Shown here in pieces: positions 331-10,131 of a stretch of DNA of 64,000 bases. Position 1 is the stretch's first letter; each line of letters begins with the position of its first letter. Location of the stretch: NCBI RefSeq assembly GCF_035920345.1, contig NZ_CP109149.1:6448001-6512000 (forward strand), written 5' to 3'. The position numbers were made by a program, and so were the translations under genes. Under the pieces are notes generated by a model. The model saw nothing but the letters and a program-made list of their open reading frames with translations. It had not been told where the DNA came from and ran no database searches. Source of the DNA: Nocardia vinacea (lineage in GTDB: Bacteria; Actinomycetota; Actinomycetes; Mycobacteriales; Mycobacteriaceae).

Positions 331-1062
331 CTACCCGAGCGATGTACAGGTGGCGGAATCCGGCAATTCCTCTGCGAGGAAGACGGTTTGGGCCATCATT
401 TTGAAGCCGGACATCTGTTCGCGGAAGACCTCGATGGACTCCTCCGGATGGACCGAGTCGATGACGGCGTGGGGGCCGATGGCATTGAACTGATGGCTCA
501 CGCCGCGGGGGATCTGCATATCGACGAAGGAGCAGGGCGGGACGATCAGGTTGTACCTGGTGCGATGCAGGCCAGGTGGGGTGTCGGGTAGGTCGTCCTC
601 GAATTGGTTGGGTGCGAAGGGCGTAACGCCTTCGACGTCGGTTACGCGGAACGGCGAGAGGCTGCTCACCCGGATGTGCGTGTCCGGACCGGTCATCATG
701 CGGACGAAGCGCAGGCCGGTGTGCAGATGCATGCGCGAGCAGATGCCGCGTTCCTCGGCATTGTAGAAATCCATGATGTAGCGGTCGGCGAAGAAGCCGT
801 CGAAGGGCGACTCGATCATGTAGACGTCGCCCTCTTCGAAGGTCTGTGAGCGGATGATGCCATCCGCGTCGGGGACGGTCGCGGCACGACTTGCCTTCGC
901 ATTCCGGACTATCTGAGCGAACGCCTGGACGACCACCGCGGCGACCTCGGGCGGGAATTGTGCTACGGGCGTAACGACATTGCGTCCAGCGTCGACGAAT
1001 TCGGCCAGGTTGTGGATCTCGTTCTCATCGTCCGCGTGGTGCTTTATTCGGGGATCGGACAT
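331..1062 (-). CDS. Cupin-fold protein of unknown function
   Basis: This 243-residue soluble protein has no signal peptide. The central part looks like a cupin barrel: MHLHTGLRF could supply metal-binding histidines, and a later RGVSHQFN could close the barrel. The ATG start is supported by AGGAG five bases upstream. It is the last clear gene of a minus-strand run beginning at 5379 and follows the asparagine-synthetase-like gene by 110 bases, which contain a family D repeat. A role in tailoring or metal-dependent oxidation of a small product would suit the context, but this is inference. No specific family name is recognised. Confidence 0.72.
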   Translation of the reverse strand: MSDPRIKHHADDENEIHNLAEFVDAGRNVVTPVAQFPPEVAAVVVQAFAQIVRNAKASRAATVPDADGIIRSQTFEEGDVYMIESPFDGFFADRYIMDFYNAEERGICSRMHLHTGLRFVRMMTGPDTHIRVSSLSPFRVTDVEGVTPFAPNQFEDDLPDTPPGLHRTRYNLIVPPCSFVDMQIPRGVSHQFNAIGPHAVIDSVHPEESIEVFREQMSGFKMMAQTVFLAEELPDSATCTSLG

Positions 1063-1087
1063 TCGGCTCCTACTTCAACATACGAAT

Positions 1088-1182
1088 GCGACTCACGGCT
1101 GCGCCTCCTGACGCTCGCCTCCGCCGTGCGCCGCGGTCGCGCTGTGTCCTTGGTTCACTCGCTGACGCTCGCTCACGGCCCG
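1088..1182 (-). repeat. Family D REP-like repeat, copy 1
   Basis: A roughly 90-base element between the asparagine-synthetase-like and cupin genes. It carries CTCACGG and GCTGCGCC near one end and a CTGACGCTCGCTCACGG block at the other, with a GCGCTGTGTC core. It aligns along most of its length with 16288-16375. The strand is arbitrary. Confidence 0.6.
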
Positions 1183-2894
1183 ACTTCGAAGGACCGCAAC
1201 CACAGCTCCAACGACAGCACCAGCCACAACTTGCCGCCCTGCCGCGGCAGCAGCGCACCGTCGCCGCGCAGCCACGAGCGGATGGTGTCCGCACGGAACA
1301 GGCCGCGCGCCCGGGCGGACGAACCGAGCAGCAGGTCGTGTCCGAGTTCGCGCAGCGGCCCGGAGAGCCACTGCTGCACCGGAACTCGCATACCGCTCTT
1401 CGGGCGGTCCACGATGGTCGCCGGAAGTAGGTCGCGCACGGCCTGTTTGAGAATCCACTTTTCGCTGGTACCGGCCAGTTTGAACCGGCCTGGGACGCGG
1501 AAGGCGTGGTCGATGACGGCGCGGTCGAACAACGGCGCTCGGCCCTCCAAACCGCTTGCGGCGGTGAGTCGTTCGACCTTGGTGAGAATGTGATGTGCGC
1601 CTTTGGTGCGCAGGTTGGTGTGCAGCAGTTGGTTCAGCAGGCTGGTCATCCGGCCTTGGCTCAGGTAGGGCGAGAGCAGATCGGTGAGTGGCGGTGCGTC
1701 TGCCAATGCGGTCAGGACGTCGGGGCTGAGCAACACCGGCAGGTCGCTGTAGCACTTGCGGTAGCTGTCCAGATAGGCCAGCGCCCTGGCGTCCGGAGAC
1801 GGGTCGTCGCGAGATAATTCGAAGATCAGCATCGGCAGATTCTTGGGGCCGCCGAAGACCGGATCGCCGCCCTCACCGTTGAGCACAACCCGAATACCTT
1901 CTGCGGCAACAGCTTCCGCGAGCAGCAGGTTGGGTACGGTGAGTGGGTCGCCGACCGGGCAGTCGAGTAGCGACACAGTCTCCGCCAATCGCGATGCGAC
2001 CGTTTCACCTGGCACGGTGAGCACTCGATGGTCGGTATTGCAATGTGTGGCAACGAGTCCGGAGTACGCGAGTTCGTTCGGCGTGGTCCCGCCGAAACTG
2101 ATGGAATACGAGCGCACACGCTGATCGTGCAGCTTGGCGGCGAGGGCGGTGACCAGACTGCTGTCGATGCCGCCGGAGAGCAGGACACCGACCGGCTCGC
2201 CCGCGGGCAGTCGTCGAGCGACCGCGTCCTGGAGCAGTTCGCGGAGTTCGAGTGCGTGCTCGGCGGCTGTTCGGTTGTCCTCGACTTCGATCGGCTCCCA
2301 GTAGGTTTCCTCGGTCATCGTGCCGTCGCCCTGCAGGCGTACGCAGCGTCCAGGCAGGACCTCATGGATGCCGCGCAACAGGGTTTCGGTTCCCGGCAGG
2401 TAGGCGAAGGTGAGGAAGGAACGCACCGCGGGCAGATGCAGACCGGTCCGCAGGGTGGGGCATCGGCGCAATGCGCGTAGCGATGTGGATGCGGCCCAGC
2501 CTTTGCCTGCGCGTGCGTGGAATAACGTGCGGGTGCCGACGTGATCGCGGATCAGTACCAGATCGCCGCGGTCGACGATGGCGAGTGCGAACATGCCGTC
2601 GGCGGCGGCGATTCCGTCGAGCCCGAAACGGGCGTAGCAGTGCAACAGCAGTTCACCGTCAGGGCAGTCCGGCGGTGCGTCCGTGCCGAGTCGGGCGCGC
2701 AGCTGTGCCGCATTGAACAGCGTGACCTCACCTATGGCAGTCAGCTCACCAACAGTGAAAGGACCTTCCGCAATGCCCGGACCATCGAGTAACCCCAGCG
2801 CATAACGGCCGGTCACCGACACCGGATGGCCGCCGACCGCCCGCACCTGCCCGGCCGGATCGTCCGGCGTCGAGAATGCACACCAACGAGACAT
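1173..2894 (-). CDS. Asparagine-synthetase-like amide-forming enzyme without Cys2
   Basis: The 573-residue protein has an N-terminal glutaminase-like (Ntn) domain and a C-terminal ATP-pyrophosphatase domain. The PP-loop is clear (LLSGGIDSS, around residue 245), followed by a GEGGDPVFGG block. Canonical AsnB exposes Cys at position 2 after Met removal. Here the protein begins MSRWCAF, so the usual glutaminase nucleophile is absent, as in beta-lactam synthetases and lasso-peptide cyclases of this superfamily. It may therefore activate a carboxylate for another amine or for ring closure. The ATG has a GAGGGA site upstream and lies 8 bases after the preceding gene. Plain ammonia-dependent asparagine synthesis remains possible. 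Confidence 0.82.
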   Translation of the reverse strand: MSRWCAFSTPDDPAGQVRAVGGHPVSVTGRYALGLLDGPGIAEGPFTVGELTAIGEVTLFNAAQLRARLGTDAPPDCPDGELLLHCYARFGLDGIAAADGMFALAIVDRGDLVLIRDHVGTRTLFHARAGKGWAASTSLRALRRCPTLRTGLHLPAVRSFLTFAYLPGTETLLRGIHEVLPGRCVRLQGDGTMTEETYWEPIEVEDNRTAAEHALELRELLQDAVARRLPAGEPVGVLLSGGIDSSLVTALAAKLHDQRVRSYSISFGGTTPNELAYSGLVATHCNTDHRVLTVPGETVASRLAETVSLLDCPVGDPLTVPNLLLAEAVAAEGIRVVLNGEGGDPVFGGPKNLPMLIFELSRDDPSPDARALAYLDSYRKCYSDLPVLLSPDVLTALADAPPLTDLLSPYLSQGRMTSLLNQLLHTNLRTKGAHHILTKVERLTAASGLEGRAPLFDRAVIDHAFRVPGRFKLAGTSEKWILKQAVRDLLPATIVDRPKSGMRVPVQQWLSGPLRELGHDLLLGSSARARGLFRADTIRSWLRGDGALLPRQGGKLWLVLSLELWLRSFEVGP

Positions 2895-2902
2895 CTTTTC
2901 CC

Positions 2903-3388
2903 TCAGCCGAAATCGCCGCCGTCGTCCCCGCCGTCATCGTCCCAACCGCCATAATCGCCGCCCCGGTCGCTGGAACGGGACGACTGCGCGGCCGCCTGGC
3001 GGCGCAACTCCTCCTCTTCCGCGGCACTCAGCGCACTCGGCGGCATGACCAGCGCGCCGAGCAGCGCACCGCCCGCCACCGCAGCCAGAATGCCGCCGAG
3101 CCGGCCACTGAACGAGGACCGATTGACGGTCAACGCTCCGTCACCCCAGAGCGTCCGCCCGAACCCCGCTTCCCTGCCGTAAACCACGGATCCGTTGTGG
3201 TACATGCGCTTCACGATCTTCGGCCCGAGCCCCTCATCGGTCCCCGAGTTACCCCGATCATCGCGCCAGGAGACCACCCCCTGTGCCCCACGCGTCCGCC
3301 ACTCCTGACGCCCATCGGCATACCGCCGATGCACAGACCCGTCAGCAAGCAACTCATCGGTATACGTAATCTGCCGATGCTCCGGCAC
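2903..3388 (-). CDS. Small membrane protein with Gly/Asp-rich tail
   Basis: A 161-residue protein of unknown function. The first 95 residues are polar, with repeated short strands such as DGSVHRRYADGRQEW that resemble beta-hairpin repeats. One hydrophobic segment (about 98-120) follows, then an EEEELRRQ stretch and a tail rich in Gly and Asp. Start is GTG, 12 bases after the preceding gene, with an AAGGGA site. The tight spacing on both sides puts it in the same transcript as the Spo11-like and asparagine-synthetase-like genes. No family is recognised. Confidence 0.65.
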   Translation of the reverse strand: MPEHRQITYTDELLADGSVHRRYADGRQEWRTRGAQGVVSWRDDRGNSGTDEGLGPKIVKRMYHNGSVVYGREAGFGRTLWGDGALTVNRSSFSGRLGGILAAVAGGALLGALVMPPSALSAAEEEELRRQAAAQSSRSSDRGGDYGGWDDDGGDDGGDFG

Positions 3389-3400
3389 AGCAATTCCCTT

Positions 3401-4372
3401 TCATGCGGCGGGCCAAGTCATGAAGCCCGTCGTTCGGGCGCGGCGCAGTTCGGGCAGGCCGGTGCGGGGTGGGCGAACCTCGCGGACGAGGCGGTGCACG
3501 GTGCGCAGTAGCGATGCCGGGCGCACCGCTTCGATTTCGACGAACCTGCCACGCCGTAGCCATGCGCGCTCCCATGAGTCCAACTGTGCTGCCTCAGCGC
3601 GCGGCACGTCGCGCGCACGCGAATCCACGTGCGTCGCCCGAGCACTCGAGGCCGAGTCGGGGCGCAGAACTTGGCGCTCGCTCGATTGGACCTGCGCCGT
3701 TTCAGCACTCGACGCTGAGCGGTGAGACGCTTCGCGCTCCCGCGGATCAACCTGCGCGGCAACGGCACTCAGCATCGGGCTGCGGAGGTGGGTAAGGTGC
3801 AGGGTGCCAGCTTGACGGGGGCGCAGGCCCAAAGGGAGTACTCGTACGCCCTCCGGAATCTCGGTCAGGTCTGCCAGCCGGGCTGGGAAGGTGAGGCCGT
3901 GGGGGCTTGCGTCGTGCAGGAGGTAGATGGTGCCGTCGACTCGGGCGAGCATTTCGGCGATGCCGGGGTCGAGCGGGAGTTCGGATGCGCTGAGGATCGG
4001 GCAGGCGGATTCCATGGGTAATCCGTTGGCGCGCAGCATTTGTGCGATTGAGTCGGACTCGCAGACGAGTAGGCGGGGTAGGCCGTAGTCGAAGAGGTCG
4101 GGTTCGGGGGTGTGGAGTCCGGCGCGGGTGGTTCGGGGTGAGGTGGGGGTCAGTAGGCCCGGAAACTCTTGGCGGTCGAGAGCGGTGCGGAATGTGGCGT
4201 AGCTCAGTGGCGCGGGGACCGTGAGGGCGAACCGGCGCGGCGCTCGATGCGTTGGTGTGAGTACGCGGCAGACCTCGTAATAGAGCTGACGCTCGGTGAA
4301 TCGGATTCCGATCGGGGCGGCGGCGCGGTCGGCCGCGATGCGGAGCAGCCGATCGAGCATGTGCTGCTTCAC
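3401..4372 (-). CDS. Protein with Spo11/TopoVI-A-like Tyr motif and Toprim-like segment
   Basis: About 323 residues from a GTG that overlaps the upstream stop in a GTGA. An ATG four codons later is the alternative start. Near the N-terminus, FTERQLYYEV fits the (S/T)xRxxYY pattern around the catalytic tyrosine of Spo11 and topoisomerase VI subunit A. Further on, LLVCESDS and then YLLHDASPHGL resemble the acidic Glu and DxDPxG motifs of their Toprim domain, but the second Asp is Ser. The C-terminal third holds four imperfect repeats of about 20 residues around AQVD/AQVQ/THVD/AQLD, and the protein ends in a TWPAA motif. The neighbouring upstream gene encodes a paralogue. The enzymatic assignment is inference from motifs. 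Confidence 0.6.
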   Translation of the reverse strand: MKQHMLDRLLRIAADRAAAPIGIRFTERQLYYEVCRVLTPTHRAPRRFALTVPAPLSYATFRTALDRQEFPGLLTPTSPRTTRAGLHTPEPDLFDYGLPRLLVCESDSIAQMLRANGLPMESACPILSASELPLDPGIAEMLARVDGTIYLLHDASPHGLTFPARLADLTEIPEGVRVLPLGLRPRQAGTLHLTHLRSPMLSAVAAQVDPREREASHRSASSAETAQVQSSERQVLRPDSASSARATHVDSRARDVPRAEAAQLDSWERAWLRRGRFVEIEAVRPASLLRTVHRLVREVRPPRTGLPELRRARTTGFMTWPAA

Positions 4373-5379
4373 CCGGTCGGCCACGTGAGGAAACCTACCT
4401 CGCGGGCGCGGCGGCGATCCGGATCGGCCGCATCCTCGATCCGCCCGACCGCTCGTTCGAGCACCATGAGCAGCTTCGCGGGTGGAATCGCGGCGATCGG
4501 GGACCACCAACCCGCGGCGAGCCATTCGATCTCCGCCGCCGATAACGGTTCACCATGCAGAAATGCGGTGTCCTGCGGCTTTGGCTCCTGCAACCGCAGC
4601 GCCGACGTATTGGCCAGTACCGTACGCGGGGACAGGCCGACCACCACGGCCCGGTTCCCGAGTGCGACGCGAGCCTTCCCAGCCAGCGCAATGCCGGGCA
4701 GGCTGGCATCGTGCAGCACGATCACCGGCACATCCAGCGGCAGTTGATCGATGCGGTCGGCCAGCGCCATGGCCCAGGTCTGCGACACATTGTTGGCCGC
4801 AAGGCAGGCGAGCACGCTGCGATCCGGGCACAACACCGCGAATCGAGGCCGGTCCACGGCCGGTGGCCGCACCAGCCCCTCGTCGACCGAGCCGGGCGGC
4901 GGGCCACCGTAAATCGGCGTCCACCGACCGACCACATCCCGGCGGAAGATGTCGTACGACACCGGCATTCGCACTGTGGCCCGGCTCAGGAACCACGGCC
5001 GCGCCGCGCCGATTCCGACGATGGCCAGCGCCAAAACCAGCGCGCCGAGCGGGAACACCACACCCGGCGGCGCCGCGCCGCTCACCATCAGGAAAAAGGC
5101 GACCACCACGATGGCCACCCCGAGTCCGATACGCACCCGCTTGAATACGCGCGCCGCATCCGGAACCTTCTTGCGTCCGGCCGCATACCAGAGCTGCACC
5201 AGCGTGTACCGCAGTCCGCGCCCGTCACCGAGCCGCTCGGCGAGCTTGCGGATCCGGATATCGTGCAGCCCGAGCGGACTTTCCTTCGGTTCGAGCGCGA
5301 ATTCCCGCTTGCACGTCGAACAGCGCCGACCGCCGCGCTTCTTGCGCAGCAGGTTGGCATTGCAATGCGGACAGATCAC
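4369..5379 (-). CDS. Zinc-ribbon membrane paralogue of the Spo11-like protein
   Basis: A 336-residue protein with GTG start. It opens with a four-cysteine zinc ribbon (CPHC and CSTC, residues 3-20), then YTLVQLWYAAGRK, which lines up with the tyrosine motif of the next gene but lacks its Arg. Two hydrophobic membrane segments follow at about 85-130. The second half has FAVLCPDRS and VIVLHDASLPG, parallel to the Toprim-like blocks of its partner, and the same ending (GFLTWPTG against GFMTWPAA). The two genes overlap by four bases. A diverged duplicate anchored to the membrane is the simplest reading. Function unknown. Confidence 0.65.
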   Translation of the reverse strand: MICPHCNANLLRKKRGGRRCSTCKREFALEPKESPLGLHDIRIRKLAERLGDGRGLRYTLVQLWYAAGRKKVPDAARVFKRVRIGLGVAIVVVAFFLMVSGAAPPGVVFPLGALVLALAIVGIGAARPWFLSRATVRMPVSYDIFRRDVVGRWTPIYGGPPPGSVDEGLVRPPAVDRPRFAVLCPDRSVLACLAANNVSQTWAMALADRIDQLPLDVPVIVLHDASLPGIALAGKARVALGNRAVVVGLSPRTVLANTSALRLQEPKPQDTAFLHGEPLSAAEIEWLAAGWWSPIAAIPPAKLLMVLERAVGRIEDAADPDRRRAREVGFLTWPTG

Positions 5380-5515: not shown

Positions 5516-5538
5516 TGAACATTTGGTGACGATGTTCA
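5516..5538. promoter_or_regulatory. Inverted repeat TGAACAT-N9-ATGTTCA
   Basis: Seven-base arms TGAACAT (5516-5522) and ATGTTCA (5532-5538) are separated by nine bases. A further ATGTTCA half-site lies at 5428-5434. The position, about 140 bases upstream of the zinc-ribbon gene start, suits a regulator binding site for the unknown operon. No regulator is identified. Confidence 0.35.
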
Positions 5539-5584: not shown

Positions 5585-5609
5585 GGCCGCGACCAAACCG
5601 GTCGCGGCC
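5585..5609 (-). terminator. Hairpin after hsaF
   Basis: A 10-bp perfect stem GGCCGCGACC with a 5-base loop, 14 bases past the hsaF stop. On the minus transcript it is followed by CTTT. It probably ends the hsa operon. Confidence 0.65.
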
Positions 5610-5623
5610 GTTTCGCAGAGGTA

Positions 5624-6658
5624 TCAGACAGAGACAGAAGCCTCACGCTGAAGTTCGAGCGCGATATCGATCAGCTGGTCTTCCTGCCCACCGACCAACT
5701 TGCGCTTACCCGCCCGAACCAGCATTTCGGCCGCCGAAACCCCATAGCGCTCGGCCTGACGCTCGGCATGCTTCAGGAAGCTGGAGTACACACCCGCATA
5801 GCCCATCATCAGCGACTGGCGGTCCAGCAGACATTCCTGCGGCATGACAGGCCGCACCACATCCTCGGCAGCGTCGGCGATAGCGAAGAAATCGATACCC
5901 GTCTTGATACCGAGCTTGTCGCAGACACCGACGAACGCCTCCACGGGTGTATTACCCGCACCAGCGCCGAATCGCCTTGCGCTGCCGTCGATTTGCTTCG
6001 CACCGGCACGAACCGCATAGATCGAGTTGGCAACCGCCAGATCCAGGTTCTCGTGGCCGTGGAAGCCGACCTGAGCGTCATCACCGAGTTCGGCAACCAG
6101 CGCCGCCACCCGGTCCGAAACCTGTTCGAGCACAAGCGCACCCGCGGAGTCCACCACGTAGACACACTGGCACCCGGCATCGGCCATGATGCGCGCCTGC
6201 TTGGCCAGCGCCTCCGGCGGCTGGGTGTGCGACATCATCAGGAAGCCGACGGTTTCCAGCCCCAACTCCCGCGCGAGACCGAAGTGCTGGATCGATACGT
6301 CCGCCTCGGTGCAGTGCGTGGCGATGCGGCAGATCGACGCACCGTTGTCCTGGGAAATCTTGATGTCCTCTTTGACGCCCACGCCGGGCAGCATGAGCAC
6401 CGCGATCTTGGCCTGCTTCGCCGTCTCCGCGGCAATCTTGACCAGCTCCTGCTCGGGAGTGTGCGAGAAGCCGTAGTTGAACGACGAGCCGCCGAGGCCG
6501 TCGCCGTGCGTCACCTCGATGACCGGCACACCGGCGCCGTCCAGCGCGGTCACGATGTTGCGCACATCGTCGGCGGTGAACTGGTGACGCTTGTGGTGCG
6601 AACCGTCACGCAGCGACGTGTCGGTGACGCGGATGTCGAGTTCTGCGGAATATGCCAT
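5624..6658 (-). CDS. hsaF: 4-hydroxy-2-oxovalerate aldolase
   Basis: This class II pyruvate aldolase cleaves 4-hydroxy-2-oxo acids, here 4-hydroxy-2-oxohexanoate from steroid rings A/B, into pyruvate and an aldehyde. The aldehyde is channelled to HsaG. The 344-residue protein shows the DmpG/HsaF signature: [15 protein letters not shown] near the N-terminus (metal and catalytic His region), [15 protein letters not shown] in the barrel, and the C-terminal communication domain ending in GGQEDQLID. The ATG is preceded by AAGGAG, which overlaps the end of hsaG. It is the last gene of the order KSTD-like, hsaE, hsaG, hsaF; Mtb Rv3534c-Rv3536c have the same order. Confidence 0.95.
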
Positions 6659-6670
6659 GGTTGAGCTCCT

Positions 6671-7585
6671 TTACACCCGGGCCGACAGAATCTGGGATGC
6701 CATGACCTCGCCGACCTGGGTGGCGGCCGCGGTCATGATGTCGAGGTTGCCCGCGTAGGGCGGCAGGAAATCGCCCGCACCCTCGACCTCCACGAAGACC
6801 GAAACCTTCGCCATCCCACCGGAAACCACCGACGGCGGGTCGAATTGCGGCTCGTTCAGCAGCCGGTAACCGGGCACGTACTTCTGGATATCGGCGACCA
6901 TCCGATGGACGGAATCCGCGATCGCATCGGTATCGGCATCCTCGGGAATCGCGCAGAAGATGGTGTCGCGCATGATCATCGGCGGTTCGGCCGGGTTCAG
7001 AATGATGATGGCCTTGCCGCGCTGCGCACCGCCGATGGTCTCCACACCACGCGAGGTGGTCTTGGTGAACTCATCGATATTGGCGCGGGTGCCCGGTCCG
7101 GCGGACACCGACGACACCGAGGCGACGATTTCGGCGTAGACCACCGGCACCACGCGCGATACCGCCGCGACGATCGGAATGGTGGCCTGACCACCGCAGG
7201 TGATCATATTGACGTTCGGCGCATCGAGATTCGCGCCGACCAGATTCACCGGCGGCACCACGGCGGGCCCGACCGCGGCGGGCGTGAGATCGACCGCGCG
7301 AATTCCGGCCTCGGCGTATTTCGGAGCGGCCGCCCGATGCACATATGCGGAGGTCGCCTCGAATACCAGATCCGGCAGTTCCGACTGCGCGAGCAACCAG
7401 TCCACGCCCTCGTGCGAGGTTTCCAGCCCGAGCCCGCGGGCGCGCTTCAAACCCTCGCTCTCCGGGTCGATTCCGATCATCCACTTCGGTTCCACCGTGG
7501 TGGAGCGCAGCAGTTTGTACAGCAGATCGGTGCTGATATTGCCGGATCCGACGATCGCGGCGGTGACGGTCCCCGTTTCGGACAC
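6671..7585 (-). CDS. hsaG: Acylating acetaldehyde/propionaldehyde dehydrogenase
   Basis: Oxidises the aldehyde released by HsaF to propionyl-CoA or acetyl-CoA with NAD and CoA. From the chosen GTG it has 304 residues, the usual length. An AGGAGG six bases before this GTG decides the start; longer upstream readings lack a site. Motifs seen: [12 protein letters not shown] (NAD-binding fold) and [14 protein letters not shown] with the catalytic Cys. It lies 10 bases after hsaE and 12 before hsaF, consistent with co-translation of the aldolase-dehydrogenase complex. Confidence 0.95.
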
Positions 7586-7595
7586 GGCAAGCCTC

Positions 7596-8381
7596 CTATT
7601 TGAATTGCAAACGGACAGAACCGAGTCCGGCGAACTCGGCGTGGAACGAATCGCCCGCGCGGGCATCGATGGCACGGGTGCAGGAACCGGGCAGCACAAT
7701 GTCGCCCGCCTTCAACCGCACCCCGAAACTGGCGACCTTGCGCGCCAACCAGGCCACCGCGATCACCGGATCGCCGAGCACCGCATCGCTGCGACCCTCC
7801 GCGACCACCTCACCATTTCGGGTTAGCACGGCGTCAATGGCCTTGATATCCAGTTCTTTCGGCGCAACCCGCGGCGCACCCAGCACGAAACCGGCCGAGG
7901 ACGCGTTATCGGAAATGGTGTCGGCCAGTCCGATCTTCCAGTCCTTGATCCGCGAATCGATCAGCTCGATAGACGGCGCGTAGGCGACCGTCGCGGCGAG
8001 CACATCGGCCTCGGTGCATTCTTCGCCGGGCAGATCCGCGCCGAGCACGAATCCGACCTCGACCTCGACTCGCGGAATCAGATAGCGCGAGGTCTCGACG
8101 GGAACGTCCTCGAAGACCTCCATATCCGCGAGCAGATGACCGTAATCGGGTTCGTCCACACCCATCATCTGCTGCATGGCCAGCGACGAAAGTCCGACCT
8201 TGTGCCCGACCACCTTCGCGCCGTTGTCGAGTTTGCGCCGGATATTGATCAGCTGGATCTCGTAGGCGTCGACGACATCGATATCGGGATGCCTGGCGAT
8301 GAGCGGGTCGATGCCGACCCGATCGCGTTCGGCGGCCTCGAGCTCATCGGCCAATTCGATTCGTACCGCGTCGGACAGCAC
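7596..8381 (-). CDS. hsaE: 2-hydroxypenta-2,4-dienoate hydratase
   Basis: Adds water to 2-hydroxyhexa-2,4-dienoate, the product of the meta-cleavage hydrolase step, to give the HsaF substrate. The 261-residue form starts at GTG one base after the stop of the KSTD-like gene. The sequence shows the fumarylacetoacetate-hydrolase-like hydratase fold: [20 protein letters not shown] with metal-ligand Glu residues, and [11 protein letters not shown]. Synteny with Mtb Rv3536c supports the assignment. Confidence 0.94.
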
Positions 8382-8382
8382 G

Positions 8383-10131
8383 CTAGTTTCCTTCCACTGT
8401 TGTCGCTTCGGGCACCGCTGCCCGCGAAAGCACTTCGGCGCCTGCCGCGAATCTGCCCGCACGCCGACCGGAGAAAATGCAGTCGGCCAGGGACAATCCA
8501 CTGACATAGGAGTCCGAGCAGATACCGACCGCCGTCCGGCCGGCCGCGTACAGGCCGGGAATATCGGTTCCTGCAGCGGATTTCACCGCCCCGGTGCCCT
8601 CATCGACGACGACTCCGCCGAGGGTGAGCATCGGGCACGGATTGACGACGCTCGGTTTGATACCCACATCCAGCAACCAGAACGGCCCGGCCCCCACAGT
8701 TTTGGTGAATTCGGCGGGCTTGCCGACCGGATCGGGCGCACCGTTCGCGATCGCGGCATTGTGCTCGGCGACGGTGGCGCGCAACCCGTCGGCATTGATA
8801 CCGGCCTTCGCCGCAACGGCATCCAGAGTTTCGCCACGCACGGCATTGCGCCGCATCGCCTCGAACTGTCCGCGCTGGAACCAGGCCGACTGCGTCCGAA
8901 TCTGTGAGATCGCGGTGCGCATGAGTCCGTCGTCGGCGAGCAGCCAACCCTTGCCGCCGTGTTCGGTGATCAGTGCGTGGCCGACCGCGGCACCGTAGCG
9001 GGTCTCATCGATGACCCGACGACCCTCCGCATCGACCAGGACCGAACCGGTAAAGGCACTGGGCGGCAAGATGAATCGCCACGCCGAGATATTGCCCATC
9101 CGATCCGTCGCCGCACCGACCCGCTCGGCCATCCGGATGCCGCTGCCGTCATCACCGGTGGTCCCGAGCGCGAGTCCGCTGCGGTATTGCGGCCCGTACT
9201 CCCGCAGCATCTCCCGATTCGCGATGAATCCGCCCGCGCTGAGCACCACACCGCGACGGGCCTGAATCCGAATTCTCGTGCGGTACCGGCGATCGAGCTT
9301 CGCGAGCTGACGCTCCATCGCCTTGCGCAGCGGCGGATAGTAAATGCCCGGCTTGGCAGCGATTTTCGCCATGCGGGCGTAGCGATCCCGGACCCGCCCG
9401 GGGGCGTCGCGCAGTGACTCACATTCGACGCCGATCACGGTGCCGTTGTCATCGGTGATCAATCGCGTTGCCTGCGTGAGGGTTTCCACCCGAATCCCGC
9501 GTCGCGACGCCGAGGCGGCGAGCGGACCGGTGAGCTTCTTGCCCGACGTGCCCTTGCCCTTGACCCGGTGTCCGCGCTGCGCTGGCGTCGCGACCTCGCG
9601 GCCGTAACCGGAGACCTCACTACCGGAGTAGTAGAGGTAGTAGCTGTCGTTCGGATACGACGTCTTGTACGGACACAGCGACGCCTCGAACGGCACACCG
9701 TGCCCCTTCAGCCACTCGATCAGCGCCGGACTCTCGTCCACAAACCGCCGCAGCGTCTCGGGCGTGACCGCCGTGCCGACCTCACGCTCGAGATATGCCA
9801 GCATCTGCTCCGGCGTATCGCGCACCCCGGCCTCGTGCTGCACCGAGGTGCCGCCGCCCGCGTAGATGATGCCGCCGGACAACGCCGACGCCCCGCCACC
9901 GGCGAAACGCTCCAGCACCAGCACCTGCGCACCCGCCTCGGTCGCTTCCAGCGCGGCCGCGGCCCCCGCTGCGCCGTAGCCGACGACGACTACGTCGGCG
10001 GTCAGGTCCCATTCGCCGCCGGCGATTGCTTGCAGGTCGCTCGACACAACGCCGCTAGCGACTGCTTGCAGGTCGCTCGACACAACGCCGCTAGCGACTG
10101 CTTGCAGGTCGCTCGACACAACACTGCCCAT
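8383..10131 (-). CDS. FAD-dependent 3-ketosteroid dehydrogenase-like protein
   Basis: Flavoprotein of the KSTD/fumarate-reductase superfamily. The Rossmann motif is VVVVGYGAAGAAAALEA, and the C-terminal cofactor region reads GLYAAGRTAVGIC then DSYVSGLSLADC. The Tyr-x-Ser there matches the catalytic YxS that I recall for 3-ketosteroid Delta4-(5alpha)-dehydrogenase of Rhodococcus jostii, so a 5alpha-steroid substrate is plausible. The translation start is uncertain. The ATG at 10131 includes a threefold 36-bp repeat; GTG codons at 10119, 10083 and 10047 are alternatives, one per copy, giving down to 554 residues. It heads the hsaE-hsaG-hsaF operon and is divergent from kstD. Confidence 0.85.
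   Translation of the reverse strand: MGSVVSSDLQAVASGVVSSDLQAVASGVVSSDLQAIAGGEWDLTADVVVVGYGAAGAAAALEATEAGAQVLVLERFAGGGASALSGGIIYAGGGTSVQHEAGVRDTPEQMLAYLEREVGTAVTPETLRRFVDESPALIEWLKGHGVPFEASLCPYKTSYPNDSYYLYYSGSEVSGYGREVATPAQRGHRVKGKGTSGKKLTGPLAASASRRGIRVETLTQATRLITDDNGTVIGVECESLRDAPGRVRDRYARMAKIAAKPGIYYPPLRKAMERQLAKLDRRYRTRIRIQARRGVVLSAGGFIANREMLREYGPQYRSGLALGTTGDDGSGIRMAERVGAATDRMGNISAWRFILPPSAFTGSVLVDAEGRRVIDETRYGAAVGHALITEHGGKGWLLADDGLMRTAISQIRTQSAWFQRGQFEAMRRNAVRGETLDAVAAKAGINADGLRATVAEHNAAIANGAPDPVGKPAEFTKTVGAGPFWLLDVGIKPSVVNPCPMLTLGGVVVDEGTGAVKSAAGTDIPGLYAAGRTAVGICSDSYVSGLSLADCIFSGRRAGRFAAGAEVLSRAAVPEATTVEGN
10022..10122 (-). repeat. 36-bp tandem repeat, 2.8 copies, at a gene start
   Basis: Copies begin at 10022, 10058 and 10094; the third is shortened to 29 bases. 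Each encodes VSSDLQA preceded by a GTG, so the start region of the KSTD-like gene is triplicated. The period is a multiple of three, so all copies are in frame. One base differs between copy 1 and the others, suggesting recent expansion. Confidence 0.9.

Follow-up and report, generated by a model that had tools for sequence, protein, structure and literature searches.

Nocardia vinacea carries a compact five-gene module on contig NZ_CP109149.1 of its 10.36-Mb genome. It lies within a stretch of 64,000 nucleotides that was analyzed as a whole (the window). The module combines an amide-forming-type ligase (P0002), a protein with a fixed three-residue end (P0003), two proteins of Toprim/Spo11 type (P0004 and P0005), and a cupin-type protein (P0001). 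The near-invariant Asp-Phe-Gly (DFG) end of P0003, together with a ligase that probably does not use glutamine-derived ammonia, suggests that something is attached to a protein tail in a way not yet described. We tentatively favor a reading in which P0003 is a carrier or tagged substrate and P0002 forms an amide on its DFG end, much as in LysW or scaffold-peptide systems and with unrelated parts.

Conservation of the five-gene unit

Linkage was investigated in 19 longer loci, namely seven of the eight loci found at first (L018-L024; L025 is a contig end) and 12 stretches from further genomes. The short loci L001-L017, with partial gene sets, were left out of this comparison. Because the loci had been retrieved via P0005 or P0003, the linkage test rests on the remaining genes. 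The order P0005, P0004, P0003, P0002 on one strand was found in 18 of the 19 loci; the other one, L039, contains no core gene, and its P0003 match is weak and partial. A Streptomyces plasmid (L097) keeps the same gene order and brings the number of core loci to 19. P0003 and P0002 are linked in all 19 core loci, and a cupin of one of two types is present in 18 of them, with neither type in L038. In L023 and L024, the cupin gene and an extra P0005-like gene are inserted between P0005 and P0004. A single flanking family recurred in at least four of the 19 loci, which we take from its sequence to be an MFS-like transporter (6 of 19 loci: 5 of the 18 core loci, and L039 without the core). Because the gene order is conserved and no flanking gene beyond this family recurs in at least four loci, the five genes are considered one functional unit. 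An earlier note made from the DNA sequence alone had proposed such a unit with the cupin as a member, and the neighborhood comparison supported both points, the genes being kept in order and not scattered.

The same note had described five tightly packed minus-strand genes, and this layout was reproduced in full. All five open reading frames (ORFs) were confirmed; three of the junctions are gaps of 110, 8, and 12 bases, and at the fourth the ORFs overlap by 4 bases. In every ORF the GC content is highest at codon position 3 and lowest at position 2, which supports all five as coding. The 4-base overlap corresponds to a P0004 start at the GTG at 4372; the alternative GTG at 4384 would give an overlap of 16 bases, and several database homologues of P0004 start four codons upstream (MADRVKQ...).

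Some variation around the core was also observed. Extra P0005-like copies occur in the Streptomyces loci (L023, 9893-10450; L024, 9873-10508; L097, 5045-6232), so that the number of paralogues varies. An aldehyde dehydrogenase gene lies directly downstream of the ligase gene in 2 of the 20 loci searched, both from Streptomyces (L023, 13798-15216; L097, 9664-11091). Genes for MFS-like transporters are found for example at 13855-15246 of L024 and in the left flank of the window (L064, 9247-10728); the family is a common one, and its linkage may be due to chance.

Tail protein, ligase, and cupin

P0003 is encoded on the minus strand at 2903..3388. In its predicted model, residues 5-89 form a beta domain of nine strands with good confidence; a hydrophobic stretch, modeled poorly, and a Gly/Asp tail follow. 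The tail is predicted to be disordered and should therefore be accessible. The codons for the C-terminal DFG are located at 2906..2914. A homology search yielded 226 homologues at E < 0.001, and the 120 listed come from Nocardia, Gordonia, Streptomyces, Saccharomonospora, Actinokineospora, and others. Among these listed matches, 119 of 120 end in DFG; P0110 alone differs, with GLG at its end and most of the tail missing. All 25 representatives at 70% identity have the DFG end, while the commonest residue reaches only 14 of 25 at the fourth position from the end and 15 of 25 at the fifth, which gives a sharp conservation boundary. One strong hydrophobic segment was predicted in 120 of 121 family members. 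No convincing match to the beta domain was found in the searches.

The ligase P0002 (1173..2894, minus strand) matches the Pfam family Asn_synthase with an E-value of 6.3e-77. Cys2 is absent in all 18 readable N-termini of the family; the N-terminus of the L038 protein, which appears shorter at that end, was not readable. The Pfam glutaminase domains match P0002 only from residue 44 or 51 and without their first 29 or 23 positions. These findings bear out the earlier description of an amide-forming-type enzyme without Cys2, with the addition that a Cys5 is common. The synthetase motifs are highly conserved. Both SGG[IV]DS, represented in the window by the PP-loop SGGIDSS at 2157..2177, and NGEGGDPVFGG were found in 19 of 19 family rows. 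RPKSGMRVPVQ was found in 18 of the 19; the row without it is the shortened piece from L021. The signature NGEGGDPVFGGPKNLPM (1830..1880) is almost identical in a cyanobacterial relative described below. In L021, from N. crassostreae, the ligase gene appears to be split into two frames by a frameshift (6807-8593), which may be an assembly error or decay. Judged from these sequences, a glutamine-dependent supply of ammonia to P0002 appears unlikely, and another amine would be expected in its place.

The top NCBIfam model for P0002 is the N-acetylglutaminylglutamine amidotransferase TIGR03104, with 274.8 bits against a cut-off of 570.1, and the next scores are 245.8 and 243.5 bits. The score to the lasso peptide cyclase model NF033535 is 119.7 bits (cut-off 525). 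Among the solved structures related to P0002 are those of beta-lactam synthetase, CarA, and a hydroxyamidotransferase.

P0001 (331..1062, minus strand) has no Pfam or NCBIfam match, and its assignment as a cupin rests on the motifs HxH and PxGxxH (HLHTGLRFV at 703-729 and PRGVSHQFN at 484-510). Both motifs are present in 15 of 16 cupin rows examined; the row of L041 is out of frame there, and the L041 cupin matches at 81%. This type was found in 14 of 18 core loci, in L037 on the opposite strand and adjoining P0005. A second cupin type is found in L022, L023, L024, and L097. It has the Glu after HxH (HAHGGEHFV) that is absent in P0001, and Cupin_2 matches it weakly in the three loci tested (best 23.1 versus 27.2 bits). 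No significant profile similarity was found between the two types. The presence of a second cupin type at another position indicates that a cupin function is apparently needed.

A P0001-type cupin also heads an operon on a Rhodococcus opacus plasmid (L096, 8998-18711), which further contains genes of AMP-binding, TauD/TfdA, and aminotransferase type. The operon, with a gene for an isoleucine-tRNA ligase nearby, is possibly a small natural-product cluster. On this plasmid no P0003 match was found, and there is no core gene within 9 kb.

The Toprim-like pair and the genomic setting

P0005 (4369..5379, minus strand) consists of a zinc ribbon (C3, C6, C20, and C23), two hydrophobic segments, and a Toprim-like domain with the motif HDAS and a C-terminal GFLTWP. 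Among the homologues listed, GF[LM][TS]WP is conserved in 113 of 120 and HDAS in 97 of 120, and two hydrophobic segments were predicted in 113 of 121 family members. P0004 (3401..4372, minus strand) contains FTERQLYY, VCESD, HDAS, VEIEAV, and a C-terminal GFMTWP. The two proteins are paralogues along the greater part of their sequences (hhalign E 1.4e-21 over 243 columns). For the predicted model of P0004, topoisomerase VI-A, JetD, and Spo11 account for the first eight VIA rows, and P0004 is accordingly predicted to have the Toprim-type fold of the topoisomerase VI-A subunit. Foldseek alone gave no match for this model at E < 0.001. No significant sequence-profile link of the pair to topoisomerase VI-A, Spo11, or JetD was detected, and a comparison of JetD (PF09983) with hhalign, using seven actinobacterial JetD proteins, gave E-values of 0.47 and 0.026, neither of them significant.

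The earlier suggestion of a Spo11-like pair is thus supported by the paralogy and by the predicted fold. That the pair acts on nucleic acid is doubtful. The P0004 family has 606 homologues, of which 120 were listed and 114 were scorable for the Toprim Glu. Among these matches the Glu is present in 92 of 114 and missing in 22, and the DxD motif mostly reads D-A-S (HDAS), with the second Asp replaced by Ser in 85 of 120. FTERQLYY, which resembles the winged-helix motif of the catalytic Tyr, is near-invariant in the family, if not fully so, and the topoisomerase VI-A rows start at model residue 75 or later. P0004 also contains a low-complexity insert (encoded at 3587-3760) with the appearance of degenerate protein-level repeats, whose length varies greatly among Nocardia (e.g. 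proteins of 271 and 441 residues).

In the plasmid collection, the closest non-actinobacterial relative of P0002 comes from Gloeothece verrucosa, a cyanobacterium, where it is plasmid-encoded (41%, without Cys2). Its gene adjoins that of a 429-residue zinc-ribbon protein that is recognized by the profiles of both P0005 (E 2.3e-18) and P0004 (E 8.4e-17). Because one protein matches both profiles, P0004 and P0005 may stem from one ancestor. The 429-residue protein ends in SFG, which is suggestive as a single case. The gene run (L095, 7775-15657) encodes a LysA-type decarboxylase, two AsnB-like proteins without Cys2, and the zinc-ribbon/Toprim-like protein.

All distribution counts include the source genome. 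P0005 was detected in 12 of 60 related genomes, all of the same genus, and its closest named matches are from Nocardia (top match N. vinacea, 97%). P0003 was detected in 33 of 147 Nocardia genomes, in 7 of 397 genomes of the order, and in 3 of 396 genomes of the phylum, the last with a single-sequence query and including one weak match. The P0005 profile matched 6 of the 396 genomes of the phylum, three of them weakly. These counts for P0003 and for the P0005 profile are probably lower bounds, as few first-look candidates were scored. Outside the class, one genome from this phylum has a P0005 match followed by a P0004 match and then the contig end.

In L018, L019, and L043 the module is located at the same site as in the window. 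The genes flanking it at this site (5624-6658 of the window; L064, 8503-9198) are presumably of steroid-degradation type, hsaB- and hsaF-like. These flanks were not found in the stretches of the other nine Nocardia loci. In genome G012, which has no P0005, the hsaB- and hsaF-like genes adjoin each other (L086), a possible empty site in one genome. Thirty loci with an hsaF-like gene comprise this possible empty site, three loci with module genes, and 26 with neither; the hsaF-like gene thus mostly has other neighbors. The pattern suggests that the module may be gained or lost as a block.

Upstream of P0005, the earlier note had proposed an operator at 5516-5538. The inverted repeat itself is genuine (TGAACAT-N9-ATGTTCA, 0.08 expected by chance). 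Its role as an operator found no support, as none of the seven loci compared, among them those of the two nearest relatives, showed the repeat ahead of the homologous gene. A hairpin with 10-bp arms at 5585..5609, between the adjoining aldolase-like gene and P0005, is a plausible boundary of the module. The terminator scan found no terminator-like site and did not score this hairpin as a terminator.

Candidate mechanism and relation to known systems

In the proposed mechanism, P0002 would bind the acidic DFG tail of P0003 and, with ATP, convert a tail carboxylate (either that of the Asp side chain or the alpha-carboxylate of the terminal Gly) into an acyl-adenylate. The activated carboxylate would be joined to an amine from another molecule in place of glutamine-derived ammonia. 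The cupin, and in two Streptomyces loci perhaps the aldehyde dehydrogenase as well, would then alter the bound group, which would be either released or kept on the tail. The role of P0003 would resemble that of an amino-group carrier protein or of a scaffold peptide. Instead of cutting DNA, the Toprim-like pair would be anchored to the membrane via the zinc-ribbon protein and would recognize or assemble the complex.

Loading of the tail is favored by the sharp conservation boundary at the DFG end, by the linkage of P0003 and P0002 in all core loci, and by the predicted disorder that would leave the tail accessible. The lack of Cys2 in the readable N-termini, combined with nearly invariant synthetase motifs, points in the same direction. 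The cupin of either type and the aldehyde dehydrogenase argue for chemistry on a substrate. There is also precedent: LysW bears its substrate on the final residue of an acidic C-terminal EDWGE (PMC10433800). The best NCBIfam model, TIGR03104, represents the family of AsnO, which amidates the second glutamine of a dipeptide (PMC8070244). As a complete picture, an undescribed loading system in which a ligase minus its ammonia source charges the DFG end of a membrane-associated carrier, the cupin works on the cargo, and a Toprim/Spo11-fold pair formerly engaged in DNA chemistry now serves as a partner is rather more doubtful.

Several observations weigh against tail loading. Every reaction step, the substrate of the cupin, and the role of the Toprim-like pair are inferred from gene content, linkage, motifs, and predicted folds, and the strongest objections are the conserved Cys5 and the topology of the tail. 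Owing to its hydrophobic segment, P0003 could have its tail outside the cell and thus separated from the ligase. Cys5 is shared by 17 of the 18 readable rows of the P0002 family (Val in L022; residues 1-5 are encoded at 2880-2894 of the window), and removal of the first four residues could make it the glutaminase nucleophile, so that loss of the ammonia supply is likely but not proven. The net charge of P0002 does not point to a site for an acidic tail, and tail loading leaves the role of the Toprim-like pair unexplained. At the G. verrucosa locus there is no P0003, and neither cupin type was found in the 19.5 kb read, which indicates that the cyanobacterial version is reduced or different. 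For its ligase, moreover, the top-scoring model is that of ordinary asparagine synthase and not TIGR03104.

The main rival is a small-molecule pathway, which we regard as possible although on balance unlikely. P0002 would join two metabolites in the manner of its solved relatives beta-lactam synthetase and CarA, with the hydroxyamidotransferase as a further such relative; the cupin and other enzymes would modify the product. P0003 would serve with the Toprim-like pair as a membrane scaffold or sensor, and DFG would be a docking peptide and no substrate. The decarboxylase and the second AsnB-like protein beside the cyanobacterial ligase, with the zinc-ribbon gene in the same run, fit this pathway, as do the cupin-headed R. 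opacus operon, the aldehyde dehydrogenase in two Streptomyces loci, and the MFS-like transporter near 5 of 18 core loci, in L039 without the core, and in the left flank of the window. However, the fixation of exactly the last three residues of P0003 is left unexplained, and the recurring unit is very small, with no flanking gene beyond the MFS-like family in at least four loci.

Pup-like conjugation, in which P0002 links the DFG end to lysines of target proteins, would account for a fixed Gly-ending C-terminus on a disordered acidic tail and for a ligase probably lacking an ammonia source. It is nevertheless improbable, as no protease, chaperone, or deconjugase recurs alongside in at least four loci, P0003 has a folded domain and a hydrophobic segment, and there is no obvious place for the cupin. 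The earlier note had left a choice between a biosynthetic and a defense module. A defense or DNA-handling module with the Spo11-like pair acting on nucleic acid would agree with the predicted fold, with the patchy distribution (33 of 147 Nocardia genomes), and with the possible empty site, yet we give it little credence: none of the five proteins has a PADLOC match, the Toprim catalytic acids are not conserved, and P0003 was not found in the phages or viral contigs searched. The defense half of that choice is thus unsupported, and biosynthesis or protein-tail modification fits better. A membrane-stress or envelope module, with DFG as a degradation or sorting signal and P0002 making a cell-envelope amide, is hardly probable, because, for all that two module proteins are membrane-predicted and the XrtA/PEP-CTERM amidotransferase model gives P0002 245.8 bits (cut-off 816.9), no exosortase or polysaccharide gene recurs alongside in at least four loci.

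For P0003, P0004, and P0005 no Pfam or NCBIfam match reached the cut-off, and no described counterpart of the five-protein set was found among the open-access papers listed, judged by titles or the start of abstracts. Beta-lactam synthetase, CarA, and the lasso peptide cyclase share the asparagine-synthetase fold with P0002, the first two as solved relatives and the third as an NCBIfam match. Their amide formation is independent of a glutaminase. The known ones close rings within one molecule, unlike the reaction proposed for P0002, and the lasso cyclase score is far below the cut-off. AsnO, of the best-matching model, acts on a dipeptide, but P0002 stays below the cut-off for this family and lacks Cys2, and the other four proteins are unlike the partners of the AsnO trio. 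Topoisomerase VI-A, Spo11, and JetD differ from the Toprim-like pair in that there is no significant profile link, the Toprim acids are eroded, and no ATPase or SMC partner recurs alongside. Scaffold-peptide (PEARL) pathways build on the end of a peptide; tail loading would likewise build on the C-terminus of a ribosomal protein, whereas none of the five proteins matches a PEARL or lanthipeptide-dehydratase-type family.

The LysW/ArgW and LysX/ArgX systems similarly place an ATP-dependent amide-forming enzyme beside a small protein whose acidic C-terminal motif is conserved (EDWGE; DFG in P0003). P0003 differs from LysW in its larger size, in the absence of LysW-type zinc cysteines, and in ending with DFG instead of EDWGE with its terminal Glu. 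P0002 differs from LysX in having the asparagine-synthetase fold, and the loading of P0003 is a proposal. We rate the module as new at the system level; if it works in a carrier-like manner, it would be a functional relative of the known carrier systems. Loading of the tail would then represent a new carrier-protein chemistry with its own type of ligase, in which the Toprim/Spo11 fold is employed outside DNA cutting.

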